A stretch of DNA of 64,000 nt from Flavobacterium sp. GTDB taxonomy: Bacteria; Bacteroidota; Bacteroidia; Flavobacteriales; Flavobacteriaceae. The position numbers were made by a program, and so were the translations under genes. Shown piece by piece: positions 15,264-63,989 of the stretch. The DNA lies in NCBI RefSeq assembly GCF_027531705.1, contig NZ_JAPZSP010000025.1, positions 17,761 to 81,760 on the forward strand, written 5' to 3'. Positions within the stretch are counted from its first letter, which is position 1; the number at the start of each line of letters is the position of its first letter. A model generated the notes under the pieces. It saw only the letters and a list, made by a program, of their open reading frames with translations. It made no database searches and was not told where the DNA came from.

Positions 15264-15271
15264 TACCTTTG
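15264..15271 (+). promoter_or_regulatory. -7 promoter element (TACCTTTG) for rpsO
   Basis: TAnnTTTG consensus upstream of rpsO. Confidence 0.55.
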
Positions 15272-15327
15272 CACACGAATTAGGAAACGCCTAGTTCATA
15301 CATAATAATCATTTAAAGAATATTGGC

Positions 15328-15594
15328 ATGTACTTAACTAAAGAAGTTAAAGCAGAAATCTTCGCTAAACACGGAGAAGCAACAAACACAGGAAAATCTG
15401 AAGCACAGATTGCCTTGTTTACATTTAGAATCAATCACTTAACTGAGCACTTGAAAAAAAATCGTCACGATTATAATACAGAGCGTTCATTGGTAAAGTT
15501 GGTAGGTAAAAGAAGAAGTCTTCTTGACTACTTGAAGAAAACCGAAATCAACAGATATCGTGAGATTATAAAAGTATTAGGAATTAGAAAATAA
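15328..15594 (+). CDS. rpsO: 30S ribosomal protein S15
   Basis: GEATNTGKSEAQIALFTFRINHLTEHLKKNRHDYNTERSLVKLVGKRRSLLDYL. Confidence 0.98.
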   Translation: MYLTKEVKAEIFAKHGEATNTGKSEAQIALFTFRINHLTEHLKKNRHDYNTERSLVKLVGKRRSLLDYLKKTEINRYREIIKVLGIRK

Positions 15595-50545: not shown

Positions 50546-50559
50546 AGATTGGTCTATTT

Positions 50560-50703
50560 TAGCCCAGATAGTAGGGGAAATCCTTTTTGGCTTGTTTTTA
50601 TTTTTTGGTTAGTGCAAAAGAGCGACCAACGGGAGCTCCTTTTGTGCTTAGCAAAAAAAAGAATAAGGCGAAAAGATTGTACCGAATAGCTGGATTGGCT
50701 TTA
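50560..50703 (+). ncRNA. Intergenic structured element copy C (between divergent gldB and nadE)
   Basis: TAGCCCAGATAGTAGGGGAAATCCTTTT ... AAAGAGCGACCAACGGGAGCTCCTTTT ... AAAAGATTGTACCGAATAGCTGGATTGGCT. Confidence 0.55.
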
Positions 50704-56288: not shown

Positions 56289-56342
56289 ATATTGAAATTG
56301 ACATTGATATTGAAATTGTGATTGACATTGAAATTGACATTG
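56289..56342 (+). repeat. ATTG hexamer repeat (9 units), intergenic
   Basis: atattg aaattg acattg atattg aaattg tgattg acattg aaattg acattg. Confidence 0.9.
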
Positions 56343-56348
56343 AAATTA

Positions 56349-57146
56349 TTATTCCTGATTTCTATTGGCTAATGCTGATTTGGCATTTTGATAGCTTTTG
56401 CCAATTCTGGAAATTACTTTTTCTCTGAATGTTTGTTCTAATTCTCCATCTACTTCTGTTAGCAAACTATTGGCATCTACTTTTATGGCTGCAACTTTAG
56501 TGTTTGTTTTTGGTTGCTTTTCTACCGATGCTAATAAATCGTCTACGTTTACATAAGTTGGTTTTGGATTGACCACTTTTTCTTGAGTAACTTGTTTTGG
56601 TTGTTCGTTTTGAGCCACTGCTTCAGAACTTTTAAATGGAATAATTTTTTCTTTGTTGTTGATTGAGTTGATTGGTGTTTTTTGATTTTGATTGAAACCT
56701 TTTGATGATTTGTTATTTACTGTTTGTGGTTCATTGCTTATTGTTGATGGTTCATTGTTGGTGGCTTGAGCAACTTGACTTTCTACCTTGATGCCATTTA
56801 CATTTTCTTCATTGTCATTGCTATTGTCATTGCCATTGATATTGCCATTGTCATTGCTATTGTCATTGCCATTGATATTGCTCTCCTTTTCAGTAACCAC
56901 CACATTGTTTTCGGGTTTAATTTCTGTGCTTTTTTGATTGAAATAAAGTATTCCAATAGAAAGAAAAACCAAAAAACTTGCTGCAATTCCAATGAATCGG
57001 AATGAGAAAAAAGGGGAACGTTTTGCACTCTTTGCTTCGGCCACTGATAGCATCGAGTCTAATCTATCCCAAGCCATTTCGGTTGGTTGGATTTCTCGAG
57101 CGTTTAGTTGCTCTTTTATTTGATTTTCTACTTTATTCGGTGCCAT
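56349..57146 (-). CDS. Putative anti-sigma-like membrane protein (single TM) encoded with the sigma factor
   Basis: VENQIKEQLNAREIQPTEMAWDRLDSML then TM FRFIGIAASFLVFLSIGILYF; overlaps sigma gene by 14 nt. Confidence 0.72.
   Translation of the reverse strand: MAPNKVENQIKEQLNAREIQPTEMAWDRLDSMLSVAEAKSAKRSPFFSFRFIGIAASFLVFLSIGILYFNQKSTEIKPENNVVVTEKESNINGNDNSNDNGNINGNDNSNDNEENVNGIKVESQVAQATNNEPSTISNEPQTVNNKSSKGFNQNQKTPINSINNKEKIIPFKSSEAVAQNEQPKQVTQEKVVNPKPTYVNVDDLLASVEKQPKTNTKVAAIKVDANSLLTEVDGELEQTFREKVISRIGKSYQNAKSALANRNQE
56815..56880 (+). repeat. 36-bp tandem built of ATTG hexamers inside a CDS
   Basis: tcattg ctattg tcattg ccattg atattg ccattg, then five of the six units repeated; encodes an NDNSNDNGNING tract. 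Confidence 0.92.
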
Positions 57147-59756: not shown

Positions 59757-59950
59757 AAACCACATAGAAATATAGTTCTATTTTTTGGCGCTTTGCTTGA
59801 AGCTTTAACCACAAAGAGCACGAAGAAGGCACAAAGTTCGCAAAGGTTTGATAGAACGCGGATGAAACGGATGCTTCGCAAACGCGGGTTTACACTGATT
59901 TTTTTTGGAGTACTGATTGAAGAAATTAGAGAAATCTTTATAATTTATTG
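59757..59950 (+). repeat. Mosaic repeat cluster copy 1
   Basis: accacatagaaatatag; taaccacaaagagcacgaagaaggcac; aacgcggatgaaacggatgcttcgcaaacgcgg; gaagaaattagagaaatctttataatttattgc. Confidence 0.9.
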
Positions 59951-60188
59951 CTTCTAAGTTCTCGATACAATTTTTGTATAATAGCTGGCGCAATTACACA
60001 AAAACCAATCGAAGTGACGTTAGTTTTGGGTTGACGAATTCGTTTTTTTAAGAAAATAAACCTATAGGTCCTATAAGAACTAAACTTGTAATTTCCCCAA
60101 TCGTCACTTCGAGTAATTTTGTGTTTCGAAAACGCTAGTTTTTGAAATGTAAAATTGTATCGAGAACCTATGGAAAACTGGTTTTTGT
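59951..60188. repeat. Long imperfect palindrome, unit 1 of tandem pair
   Basis: gttctcgatacaattt (59957-59972) / aaattgtatcgagaac (60151-60166); cgaagtgacg / cgtcacttcg. Confidence 0.9.
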
Positions 60189-60413
60189 TTCTAAGTTCTC
60201 GATACATTTTATAAAAAGCTAGCGCATTTTATAAAACACTCGAAGTGACGGTAGTAATAATTTGATATGACTTGCTTTTAAGAAATATAAATCTATAAGC
60301 CCTAGAAAAACTATACTCGTTCTTTTTCCTATCGTCACTTCGAGTGATTTTATGTTTCGAAAACACTAGTTTTTGAAATGTAAAATTGTATCGAGAACCT
60401 ATGGAAAACTGAC
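60189..60413. repeat. Long imperfect palindrome, unit 2 of tandem pair
   Basis: Same arms and same flank ttctaagttctcgatac ... aaattgtatcgagaacctatggaaaactg. Confidence 0.9.
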
Positions 60414-60528
60414 ACTATTATCTTAAAGTTCCTGATGCGTTTTAAACTTTTATCAAAAAAAATAATTTTCAATTAAACCTTTTTGAGTTGTAATTGTCTT
60501 ATTATTAAACCGTAAAAAAATATAGAAT

Positions 60529-61395
60529 ATGAAAACTACTCAATTTATTTTAGGATTAGCTTTAGCTATTACTTTTTTTAGCTGTAACAGAGATGACTAT
60601 GAAGATAGAGGAACTATCACATCGGAGGAAATGCAATTAAATGCAAAAATTGACATTGCTAGTGATGATGTGTCAAATATTGTGGAAGAACAACTTACCG
60701 TAGATGATGGCATTGTTGGCAGAGGTACAACATCTGCCGTACAATTTTTGCCTGCTTGTGCAGTAGTGACTAGAGTTCCAGAAACAGGTGTTCCTGCTGT
60801 TGGTCAGAATATTGTTAAAACTATTAATTTTGGCACTACTGGTTGCGAAATGCCAAATAGGAATGTACTTAAAGGTGTTATCATAATTACCATTCCTTAT
60901 TTACCAAATGCTACTACTCATACTATCACTTATCAGTTTGTAAATTTCTATCATAATGCTATCAAGTTTGACGGAACTAAAACTTTTTCAAGAACCATGA
61001 GCGCTGCAGTTGATGGGCATCCTATTGTAACAATGAATATGGACTTGAATGCTACTTTCCCTAACGGAAATGTTTATACAAGAGTGGGAACTAGAGTTAG
61101 AGAGATTATAGAGGGTATGAATACTCCAGCCGTTTTAATTGATAATATCTATAAAATTACTGGAAGTTGGACTACAACTTTTCCTAACACAACAGTTCAA
61201 ACGAGCACTATTACAACGCCTCTTAATGTAAAGATGAGCTGTATGTCGGTTAATAAACCGTTGCTTGTGTCTGGTGTTATAACTATTACTAGAAATAATA
61301 ATGTTGCCACACTAGATTATGGTGATGGTACTTGTGATAATCTTGCTACTTTTACTTTAAATGGTGTCGCCTATCAAATTACATTTGGTAATTAA
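60529..61395 (+). CDS. Hypothetical lipoprotein
   Basis: MKTTQFILGLALAITFFSCNRDDYEDRG lipobox. Confidence 0.75.
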   Translation: MKTTQFILGLALAITFFSCNRDDYEDRGTITSEEMQLNAKIDIASDDVSNIVEEQLTVDDGIVGRGTTSAVQFLPACAVVTRVPETGVPAVGQNIVKTINFGTTGCEMPNRNVLKGVIIITIPYLPNATTHTITYQFVNFYHNAIKFDGTKTFSRTMSAAVDGHPIVTMNMDLNATFPNGNVYTRVGTRVREIIEGMNTPAVLIDNIYKITGSWTTTFPNTTVQTSTITTPLNVKMSCMSVNKPLLVSGVITITRNNNVATLDYGDGTCDNLATFTLNGVAYQITFGN

Positions 61396-61457
61396 TATTG
61401 ATTTTTATTTTCAGAAGAAAGGTTCCAGTTTTTTGGGGCCTTTTTTTGTTTGGTTTT

Positions 61458-61550
61458 TAACCACAAAGGACACGAAGAAGGCACGAAGGGCGCGAAGGTT
61501 TTTTGGAACACAGATTAAAGAAATTAGAGAAATCTTTATAATCTTTTTAC
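61458..61550 (+). repeat. Mosaic repeat cluster copy 2
   Basis: taaccacaaaggacacgaagaaggcacgaagggcgcgaagg...aacacagattaaagaaattagagaaatctttataatc. Confidence 0.88.
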
Positions 61551-61605
61551 TTCATCTATTCATCATATCACCACTTCGTACCTCGTATTTCGTACCTCGT
61601 CCCTT

Positions 61606-62643
61606 TTATGATTTGTTGGCTAGTTGACCACAAGCAGCGTCTATGTCTTTTCCTCTGCTTCGGCGGACTTTGGCTACTATATCGTGTTTGGATAATTCAG
61701 TTATGTATAAATTGATGGCTTCGTCGGATGCTTGTTGGAATTCACCGTCGTCTATTGGATTGTATTCTATTAGATTGACTTTGCAGGGAACGTATTTGCA
61801 GAATTTTACTAGAGCATCAACGGCTTCTTTGTTGTCATTGATTCCTTTCCATACAACATATTCGTAGGTAATTTTGCTTTTGGTTTTTCTATACCAATAG
61901 TCCAAGCTTTCTCTTAAATCTTTTAGTGGAAAGTTGACAGTAAACGGCATAATTCTATTACGAACCTCATCTATTGCAGAATGTAGCGAAACGGCTAATT
62001 TGACTTTTACCTCATCGTCTGCCATTTTCTTAATCATCTTCGGAATTCCCGATGTGGAAACTGTGATTCTTTTGGGTGACATACCTAATCCTTCGTTGGA
62101 GGTTATCATGTCGATGGCTTTCATTACGTTGGGGTAATTCATAAGTGGTTCACCCATTCCCATAAAAACGATGTTGGACAACGGATGGTTGTAATATAAA
62201 CGACTTTCTTTATCGATTGCCACTACTTGATCATAAATTTCGGCTGGTTCAAGGTTGCGCATTCTTTTGAGGCGCGCTGTTGCACAGAAATTACAATCTA
62301 AACTGCAACCTACTTGTGAAGAAACGCAGGCGGTTGTTCGGGTTTCTGTTGGAATTAGAACGCTTTCAACAACTAAACCATCGTGAAGTCTTACGGCATT
62401 TTTTACGGTTCCGTCGTCACTACGCTGCATGGTATCAACTTTGATGTGATTGATGACAAAATTAGCTTCGAGCATAGCACGGGTTTCTTTGGAGACGTTG
62501 GTCATGTCTTCAAATTTATGTGCGCCTTTGCTCCACAACCATTCATATACCTGATTGCCTCTAAAGGCTTTGTCTCCATTGGCTACAAAAAAGTCTCTGA
62601 GTTGTTCTTTAGTGAGGCTTCGAATGTCTTTTTTCTCCATCAT
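61606..62643 (-). CDS. rlmN: 23S rRNA (adenine2503-C2)-methyltransferase RlmN
   Basis: SSQVGCSLDCNFCATARLKRMRNLEPAEI, GMGEPLMNYPNV; start ~62640/62643. Confidence 0.97.
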   Translation of the reverse strand: MMEKKDIRSLTKEQLRDFFVANGDKAFRGNQVYEWLWSKGAHKFEDMTNVSKETRAMLEANFVINHIKVDTMQRSDDGTVKNAVRLHDGLVVESVLIPTETRTTACVSSQVGCSLDCNFCATARLKRMRNLEPAEIYDQVVAIDKESRLYYNHPLSNIVFMGMGEPLMNYPNVMKAIDMITSNEGLGMSPKRITVSTSGIPKMIKKMADDEVKVKLAVSLHSAIDEVRNRIMPFTVNFPLKDLRESLDYWYRKTKSKITYEYVVWKGINDNKEAVDALVKFCKYVPCKVNLIEYNPIDDGEFQQASDEAINLYITELSKHDIVAKVRRSRGKDIDAACGQLANKS

Positions 62644-62687
62644 GGGGCAAAGATAGTTATTTTTTGGAAGTTGTGTGACTTGCGGTC

Positions 62688-62870
62688 TAACCACAAAGAG
62701 CACGAAGAAGGCACCAAGGTCACAAAGGTTTTTTGGAACACAGACCTGTCTGCCGACAGGAGGGTTTAAGAAATTAGAAAAATTTTGATAATCTTTTTAT
62801 TGCTTCAAAGCTCTCGATACATCCGCCGCGGCGGAAACTCGAAGTGACGGCTGTGGTAGCTTGATGTATT
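62688..62870 (+). repeat. Mosaic repeat cluster copy 3
   Basis: taaccacaaagagcacgaagaaggcac; gacctgtctgccgacagg; ctctcgatacatccgccgcggcggaaactcgaagtgacgg. Confidence 0.88.
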
Positions 62871-62953
62871 CGTTTTTGGAATTTGTTATTTGCTTTTTGG
62901 GATTTTCCTTTTGTTATTTGTTCTTTGTACTTTTGCTTCTTAAATTTATTATT

Positions 62954-63595
62954 ATGCATTTTCTTTCCGACGATTTAGAACATTATATTGAGAAACACTC
63001 ACAAAAAGAGCCTGAGCTTTTGGCGCAATTGAATAAGGAAACGTATCAAAAGATATTGTTACCACGTATGTTGAGTGGGCATTTTCAAGGGCGTGTTTTG
63101 AGTATGCTTTCTAAGTTGATTCGTCCTGTGACTATTCTTGAAATTGGTACTTATACGGGTTATTCGGCTTTGTGTTTGTGTGAAGGTATGCAAGAAAATG
63201 GTGTTTTGCATACTATTGATATTAAGGAGGAATTGATTGATTTTCAAAGAAAGTATTTTGATAAGTCGCCTTGGGGTTCACAGATTGTGCAACATTTGGG
63301 TGAGGCTTTAGATATTATTCCAGCTATTGATACTACGTTTGATTTGGTTTTTATTGATGCCGATAAGGAGAATTATATTAATTATTTTCATCTGATTGTT
63401 CCCAAAATGAATAAGGGTGGTATTATTCTTTCGGATAATGTTTTATGGAGTGGAAAAGTTGTGGAAGAAGTAAATCCGAATGATGTTTCGACTACTATCT
63501 TGCTTGAGTATAATACGCTATTGAATACGGATGCGAGAGTGGAAACGGTTTTGTTGCCTATTCGGGATGGGTTGACGGTTAGTAGGGTTTTGTAG
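62954..63595 (+). CDS. O-methyltransferase (class I SAM-dependent)
   Basis: ILEIGTYTGYSALCLCEGM, FDLVFIDADKENYINYFHLIVPKMNKGGIILSDNVLWSGKV; ATG at 62954. Confidence 0.94.
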   Translation: MHFLSDDLEHYIEKHSQKEPELLAQLNKETYQKILLPRMLSGHFQGRVLSMLSKLIRPVTILEIGTYTGYSALCLCEGMQENGVLHTIDIKEELIDFQRKYFDKSPWGSQIVQHLGEALDIIPAIDTTFDLVFIDADKENYINYFHLIVPKMNKGGIILSDNVLWSGKVVEEVNPNDVSTTILLEYNTLLNTDARVETVLLPIRDGLTVSRVL

Positions 63596-63598
63596 GGC

Positions 63599-63950
63599 TT
63601 AACCACGAGGGACACGAAGAAGGCGCGAAGGACACGAAGGCTTTTTTTAACCACATAGAAACATAGTTTTTATAGTTCTATTTCTAGGCGCTGCGCTTGG
63701 GATGGGTTACATAGTTTTTGGCGCTGCGATTGGGATGGGAACGCGGATGAAACGGATGCTTCGCAAACGCGGATTTGCACGGATTTTTTTGGAGCACGGA
63801 CCTGTCTGCCGACAGGCAGGTTGAAGAAATTTGAGAACTCTTTATGATTTATTGCTTCTAAGTTCTCGATACAATTTTAGTGTAATAGCTGGCGCAATTA
63901 CACAAAAACCACTCGAATTGACGGTAGTGGTAGATTGATGAATTCTTATC
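63599..63950 (+). repeat. Mosaic repeat cluster copy 4 (most complete module order)
   Basis: aaccacgagggacacgaagaaggc; accacatagaaacatag; aacgcggatgaaacggatgcttcgcaaacgcgg; gacctgtctgccgacaggcaggtt; ttctaagttctcgatacaatttt. Confidence 0.9.
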
Positions 63951-63956
63951 GTCAAA

Positions 63957-63989
63957 AGACCTGACAGGTTTTAAAAACCTGTCAGGTCT
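63957..63989. repeat. Perfect palindromic hairpin
   Basis: agacctgacaggttt-taa-aaacctgtcaggtct, 15-bp arms. Confidence 0.92.

Follow-up and report, generated by a model that had tools for sequence, protein, structure and literature searches.

Intergenic module clusters of a Flavobacterium genome as probable remnants of small elements with tandem-unit arms around GxxExxY genes

The nearest published case to the elements that are described here is the intervening sequence (IVS) of the 23S ribosomal RNA (rRNA) of Coxiella, which carries an open reading frame (ORF) of the S23 family, terminal inverted repeats and tandem GACAGAT heptamers; a mobile origin has been proposed for the 23S intervening sequences (PMC4990558). 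A second described system, REPIN/RAYT (PMC3116915), is taken up at the end of this text. Here, we have analysed a stretch of 64,000 nucleotides from Flavobacterium sp. (assembly GCF_027531705.1, contig NZ_JAPZSP010000025.1, positions 17,761 to 81,760), to which we refer as “the window”, where four intergenic clusters of short modules, named a to f, are located between positions 59757 and 63950.

Our comparison with the flanks of GxxExxY genes points to modules a, b, c and e as the probable left arms of small mobile elements of one class, each module representing another of four clades; the remnants of these elements would have spread locally. A complete element of this class is located in the window itself, on the + strand: the GxxExxY gene (2179-2550) is preceded by a left arm of CCACAGATT units (2094-2136) and followed by a right arm (2554-2596, - strand) that is an inverted copy of the left one. 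In the open-access literature, with subscription papers and preprints lying outside our search, GxxExxY is named in two papers, in passing in both, and PF13366 in one.

Paired arms of the GxxExxY genes

The genome that the window comes from contains six GxxExxY genes, all six located between inverted arms; across 61 Flavobacterium genomes, such genes occur in 50, with one to nine in each. The pairing of the arms has been scored for 93 GxxExxY genes of these genomes, by aligning the 400 bases upstream with the reverse complement of the 400 bases downstream: the median score is 42, compared with 22 for the flanks of different genes, while a score above 33 is reached by 78% of the GxxExxY genes, as opposed to none of 30 rlmN genes and one of 49 other small ORFs (Mann-Whitney p = 5e-18). 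The sole small-ORF control above 33 is a YcxB-like ORF between GTTTAAAG arms. At locus L308, the inverted repeat that flanks the GxxExxY gene is exceptionally long (score 236).

The arms are rows of near-identical short units, e.g. CACAAAG, CGCAGAT, CACATAG, CACGAATT or ATTAAG, and the lag between units peaks at 9-10 and ~21 nt. A conserved hairpin within the arms is not general: it occurs in both arms only at two clade-c loci (L129 and L122) and in one arm of L028; the strongest arm stems (score of 8.5 or more) make up 3.8%, compared with 0.5% in shuffled sequences, at few loci, and none is found in the arms of S23 genes.

The type of the arm follows the protein. When six arm classes are placed on the protein tree (79 tips), 8 changes are counted, compared with a shuffled mean of 35.6 and a minimum of 29 in 2000 shuffles; with one tip for each cluster of loci that share their flanks (26 tips), the count is 6, compared with 12.7 when shuffled and a minimum of 9. 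By an alignment-free rank correlation, the similarity of the arms rises with the identity of the proteins significantly, though only modestly (0.23, permuted maximum 0.13).

The modules of the window have been scored against all arms, with shuffled sequences as the control, and the best matches fall into separate clades: module a scores highest at L025, L086 and L106, all of clade a; the top four loci of module b are exactly the four clade-b loci; module c scores highest at L028 and L129, of clade c; and module e, as it occurs in cluster 2, agrees in 41 of 44 bases with the right arm of the L125 gene from another species (score 73, shuffled maximum 30). Within the genome of the window, a, b and c are carried by the GxxExxY loci L025, L026 and L028, respectively. 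An initial annotation of this DNA had treated the modules as parts of one structured element; that view does not hold for a, b, c and e, which belong to separate types of GxxExxY element, each with its own gene and its matching inverted arm.

The protein between the arms is predicted to be a minimal PD-(D/E)XK nuclease. The product of the gene at 2179-2550 matches TIGR04256 with 146.5 bits (cut-off 35) and PF13366 (PDDEXK_3) with 133.1 bits (cut-off 22), no family other than GxxExxY / PDDEXK_3 is matched at E <= 0.001, and there is no match to a known transposase. In the 93 sequences, the active-site residues D, E and K are invariant (93/93), and those of the GxxExxY motif show little or no variation. 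The Protein Data Bank (PDB) contains no sequence relative of the protein; the AlphaFold2 model (predicted local distance difference test score of 94.6) has its best solved match in SSO0001, which we take to be a Cas4 exonuclease, with a Foldseek E value of 6e-6, a Z score of 10.0 and a root-mean-square deviation of 3.2 over 98 residues. Further nuclease matches score lower, and Z scores below 8 may reflect a mere common arrangement.

The gene between the arms could nevertheless be a passenger or a helper, with the arms as the real element and with another enzyme, e.g. a Y1/RAYT transposase or a reverse transcriptase, moving the units in trans. We consider this unlikely, although it deserves some weight: the plan of inverted short-unit arms is common to two unrelated ORF families (GxxExxY and S23), arms of a similar kind flank the YcxB-like ORF at the miaB site, and the genome contains two Y1_Tnp genes, each with its own REP arms. 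Yet the arm type closely follows the GxxExxY protein clade, the catalytic residues are invariant, which would be needless for a passenger, and the Y1_Tnp arms, AATCCCGTAGGGAT and GCGAGCTTCTAGCTCGTGCC, are unlike modules a, b, c and e.

The two RAYT-like Y1_Tnp genes (L030 and L031), each located between its own inverted REP-like repeats, have also been examined as partners of the modules and rejected, since both bear other repeats; a small GIY-YIG gene has been rejected as well, since it has no flanking inverted repeat. At L009:270-870, a Y1_Tnp-like ORF that looks degraded by eye contains a GTAGAGACGCGATGCATCTCGTCTCTAC palindrome.

Content and order of the clusters

The six modules are located at or close to the places where the initial annotation had put them: in a scan that tolerates mismatches, 28 module hits fall within 56-64 kb and none within the remaining 56 kb of the window, compared with 0.4 hits per 8 kb of shuffled sequence, the count of 28 being partly circular, since the consensus strings were taken from the window; identical strings also detect the clusters of the adjoining contig, C9. 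A further piece, h (TAGGCGCTGCGCTTGGG), was missing from the initial list.

Cluster 1 has the order b-a-c-e-f-f'-f-f': a left-arm unit of the clade-b (CACATAG) GxxExxY element (module b, 59759-59775) is followed by the left arms of the clade-a element (module a, 59805-59842) and the clade-c element (module c, 59855-59905), and by an arm of the L125-type element (module e, 59906-59954). The cluster extends to ~60402, because module f consists of an arm, a spacer and an inverted arm unit and is present twice, first at 59955-60171 (arm 59955-60033, spacer, inverted arm ~60090-60171) and again at 60188-60402. Cluster 2 consists of modules a (61457-61500) and e (61501-61553); next to it, a tandem CGTACCTCGTATTTCGTACCTCGT repeat (61571-61600) has been assigned by eye to the S23-like short-unit arms. 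Cluster 3 has the order a-d-e-f, with module a at 62687-62738, the palindrome of module d at 62743-62760, module e at 62767-62802 and a single arm of module f at 62805-62850, which contains the hairpin TCCGCCGCGGCGGA. Cluster 4 has the order a-b-h-h-c-d-e-f: module a (63599-63640) is followed by module b with two GGCGCTGCG inserts, i.e. h (63648-63738), and by modules c (63739-63790), d (63799-63816), e (63823-63858) and the left arm of f (63857-63926).

Cluster 4 continues beyond the window, which ends where its contig (C23) ends; contig C9 is the continuation, with an overlap of 125 bp, and contains the inverted arm of the last f (L330:159-220). A palindrome, GACCTGACAGGTTTTAAAAACCTGTCAGGTC, is inserted into the spacer of this f element at 63958-63988, at the contig end. 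The clusters of C9 read h-a-h-a-h-a-h-c-a-c-e-f..., c-h-c-e-f, b-h-a-c-e-f, a-b-h and c-h-c-a-b-h-h-c-a-c-e-f, on the same strand and within 38 kb. Every cluster of the window and of C9 lies on the + strand, in a separate intergenic gap, over ~42 kb in all (window 59759-63930, C9:22100-38200); the single arms found elsewhere in the genome lie on both strands.

The conserved module order that had been reported is therefore retained in part: c-(d)-e-f is the sole constant order across the clusters of the window and of C9, while a, b, c and h are shuffled and repeated, e.g. b-a in cluster 1 but a-b in cluster 4. A single composite element, regulatory or a small RNA, with modules a to f in fixed order, would account for the constant c-(d)-e-f of the local family; we regard such an element as very improbable, given that a, b, c and h occur in varying order and more than once, that a, c and e occur solo and the modules are mostly solitary in the genome outside the local family, an outcome that the initial annotation had itself named as counting against its reading, that an Rfam search has no match at the clusters, and that clusters 2 and 3 are missing in 29 of 29 relatives. 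The common order is best read as the local spread of one nested cluster within ~42 kb, because a, b and c permute, repeat and occur solo elsewhere. The earlier description of the clusters as composite and eroded, rather than as a simple insertion sequence, stands.

Module f consists of inverted doublets of hairpin units and looks like a REPIN-like inverted pair; its partner gene has not been found. Elsewhere in the window, TTGACATTGATATTG-type tandem repeats of 6/12 nt are located at 56298-56347 and at 56800-56891, the latter inside an ORF where it encodes NGNDNSND repeats, and Rfam matches to the S15-Flavobacteria leader and to the Flavo-1 RNA are located at 15264-15330 and 50557-50700.

Mobility of the elements and recognition of the arms

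At the rlmN locus, the places of clusters 2 and 3 are empty in all 29 relatives. In the nearest of them (~80% identity), the gene order is kept and the terminator is located directly before the end of rlmN; compared with this relative, the genome of the window has ~165 extra bases at the terminator side and ~230 on the other side. At the miaB locus, 11 of 30 genomes contain a GxxExxY element; it is absent from four, in which the gap measures only 5-33 bp. Type-a arm-arm copies that lack the ORF are found at several sites of the genome of the window, which contains 22 type-a arms; 17 other genomes contain 1-9, and the reversed pattern is found in none of the 61. From the empty sites and the copy numbers, we infer that the elements are mobile. 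The miaB locus is also occupied in other ways: at L211, by a ~60-bp S23-like arm-arm copy without ORF, GTTTCAGGTTTCAGG ... CCTGAAACCTGAAAC, and at L205 and L209, by the YcxB-like membrane ORF between inverted GTTTAAAG arms, in the very place where other species have a GxxExxY element.

The arms of the miaB elements, the proteins of which form one group on the tree, differ between species and yet stay complementary, with both arms changing in concert: 38 changes are two-sided and 3 one-sided. The covariation of the arms is 0.341, compared with 0.166 when shuffled (reached in 0 of 500 shuffles) and with at most 0.128 when the arms are slid; these arms were anchored by their outer-unit pattern, a choice that is biased towards recognisable arms, though not towards complementarity as such. 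Over all GxxExxY arm pairs, G-U mismatches on the sense strand (155) are not favoured over A-C mismatches (211). The scarcity of one-sided changes and the lack of a preference for G-U over A-C speak for recognition or conversion at the level of DNA and not for an RNA stem; the small-RNA reading that the initial annotation had in view, with a covariance model, is accordingly not favoured.

The same counts bear on the possibility that the arms pair as RNA and enclose the ORF in a stem, like the RNase III-cut intervening sequences of 23S rRNA. This is suggested by the Coxiella case, with its S23 ORF and with GACAGAT heptamers that are close to the S23 arms found here (PMC4990558), but we consider it improbable: the G-U and A-C counts and the 38 two-sided changes against 3 one-sided ones are unlike stems that evolve through G-U intermediates, and none of the loci that we have read is located inside rRNA. 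An origin through mutation, where slippage would produce the tandem units and quasi-palindrome correction would copy one arm onto the other with no recognition by a protein, is in keeping with the concerted change of both arms at a fixed site, almost without intermediates; it leaves unexplained why neighbouring small ORFs and rlmN are armless, why clade-matched arms occur at separate loci and why arm pairs without ORF occur in many copies, and it seems to us just as improbable.

We return to the mobile elements with GxxExxY genes, which might work as follows. A complete element is ~0.5 kb long, with an inward-pointing arm of 2-4 near-identical units, the GxxExxY gene and the inverted arm. The nuclease would bind to DNA at the tandem units of the arm type that belongs to it and would nick or cut at these units, possibly in an extruded or single-stranded form; host repair or replication would then copy the element, or a derivative without ORF, into a new intergenic site. 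The clusters of the window would be non-autonomous remnants, i.e. left arms of several types that were inserted side by side and lost their right halves, and would then have spread locally, in one orientation, over ~42 kb, along with the REPIN-like f.

Several observations weigh against this account. The S23 genes, which show no nuclease, share the arm plan, so that the ORF may not be the mover, and we know of no transposition step for the GxxExxY nuclease family. Neither a target-site duplication nor an excision product has been seen, and the relatives, at ~80% identity, are too diverged for base-exact joints; the one-sided state of the clusters and their common orientation are not predicted by simple transposition. 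Module d has no match among all the GxxExxY arms scored, and module f reaches at most 30 against all arms (shuffled maximum 25) with no clade pattern. Lastly, clear arms are missing at 22% of the GxxExxY genes, among them a whole clade (L133, L103, L126 and L132).

This armless clade has a GFQEVIYQRA motif and retains the active site; it is possibly domesticated. A search of phages gives no match, and a search of plasmids gives eight records, all of them predicted to be non-mobilizable.

Breadth of the plan and comparison with known systems

A further 81 loci, drawn from a search in which each species was represented by a single genome and from two viral contigs, have a median arm score of 34, compared with 22. 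The plan of arm, gene and arm also occurs at loci of Chloroflexota, Cyanobacteria, Planctomycetota, Ignavibacteria and Gemmatimonadota: the arms are clear in Anaerolineae and Anabaena, and recognisable in Planctomycetota, Ignavibacteria or Melioribacter records, while a Gemmatirosa plasmid contains a GxxExxY locus with long arms. The S23 four-helix-bundle genes of Flavobacterium show the same plan, with 8-nt units (lag peaks at 8/16/24) and 58% of the genes above score 33; their arms are separate from those of modules a, b, c and e.

We tentatively propose, with somewhat less than even confidence, that a so far unrecognised class of selfish DNA, present in several bacterial phyla, is driven by GxxExxY genes, with a minimal Cas4-like nuclease and with clade-matched arrays of short units as the ends. 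Were this so, the GxxExxY and S23 elements would belong to a single architectural class, and many short intergenic repeats and spurious repeat-encoded ORFs of bacteria that lack an explanation would be accounted for. Two orphan families, GxxExxY and the S23 four-helix bundle, gain a context and a testable role, the intergenic repeats that abound without explanation in Bacteroidota and other phyla are tied to specific genes, and the arm sequence that each protein clade has of its own offers a ready-made set of specificity tests.

Compared with the known systems, the elements resemble REPIN/RAYT (PMC3116915) in their short inverted doublets between genes, which are clade-matched to one small gene that carries the same repeats, and in their copies without ORF; in contrast to that system, the gene is a predicted PD-(D/E)XK nuclease and not a Y1/HUH transposase, and the arms are arrays of short tandem units and not single palindromes. 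With insertion sequences and miniature inverted-repeat transposable elements (MITEs), they share the inverted ends, the occurrence of both gene-bearing autonomous forms and forms without ORF, and the empty sites in relatives, but they have no known transposase, their ends are internally repeated and clade-specific, and no target duplication has been seen with relatives too diverged for exact joints. The Cas4/RecB-like PD-(D/E)XK nucleases, such as SSO0001, have the same fold and the active-site pattern D...E-x-K, whereas the GxxExxY protein is a single domain of 120 residues that stands alone between arms; no CRISPR locus has been noticed in the short flanks that were read around the GxxExxY genes. 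The 23S rRNA intervening sequences (PMC4990558) likewise have a small ORF between inverted ends, with tandem heptamers before the ORF in Coxiella, whereas the GxxExxY elements are located between protein genes, their protein is unrelated to S23, and their arms have no RNA-pairing signature.

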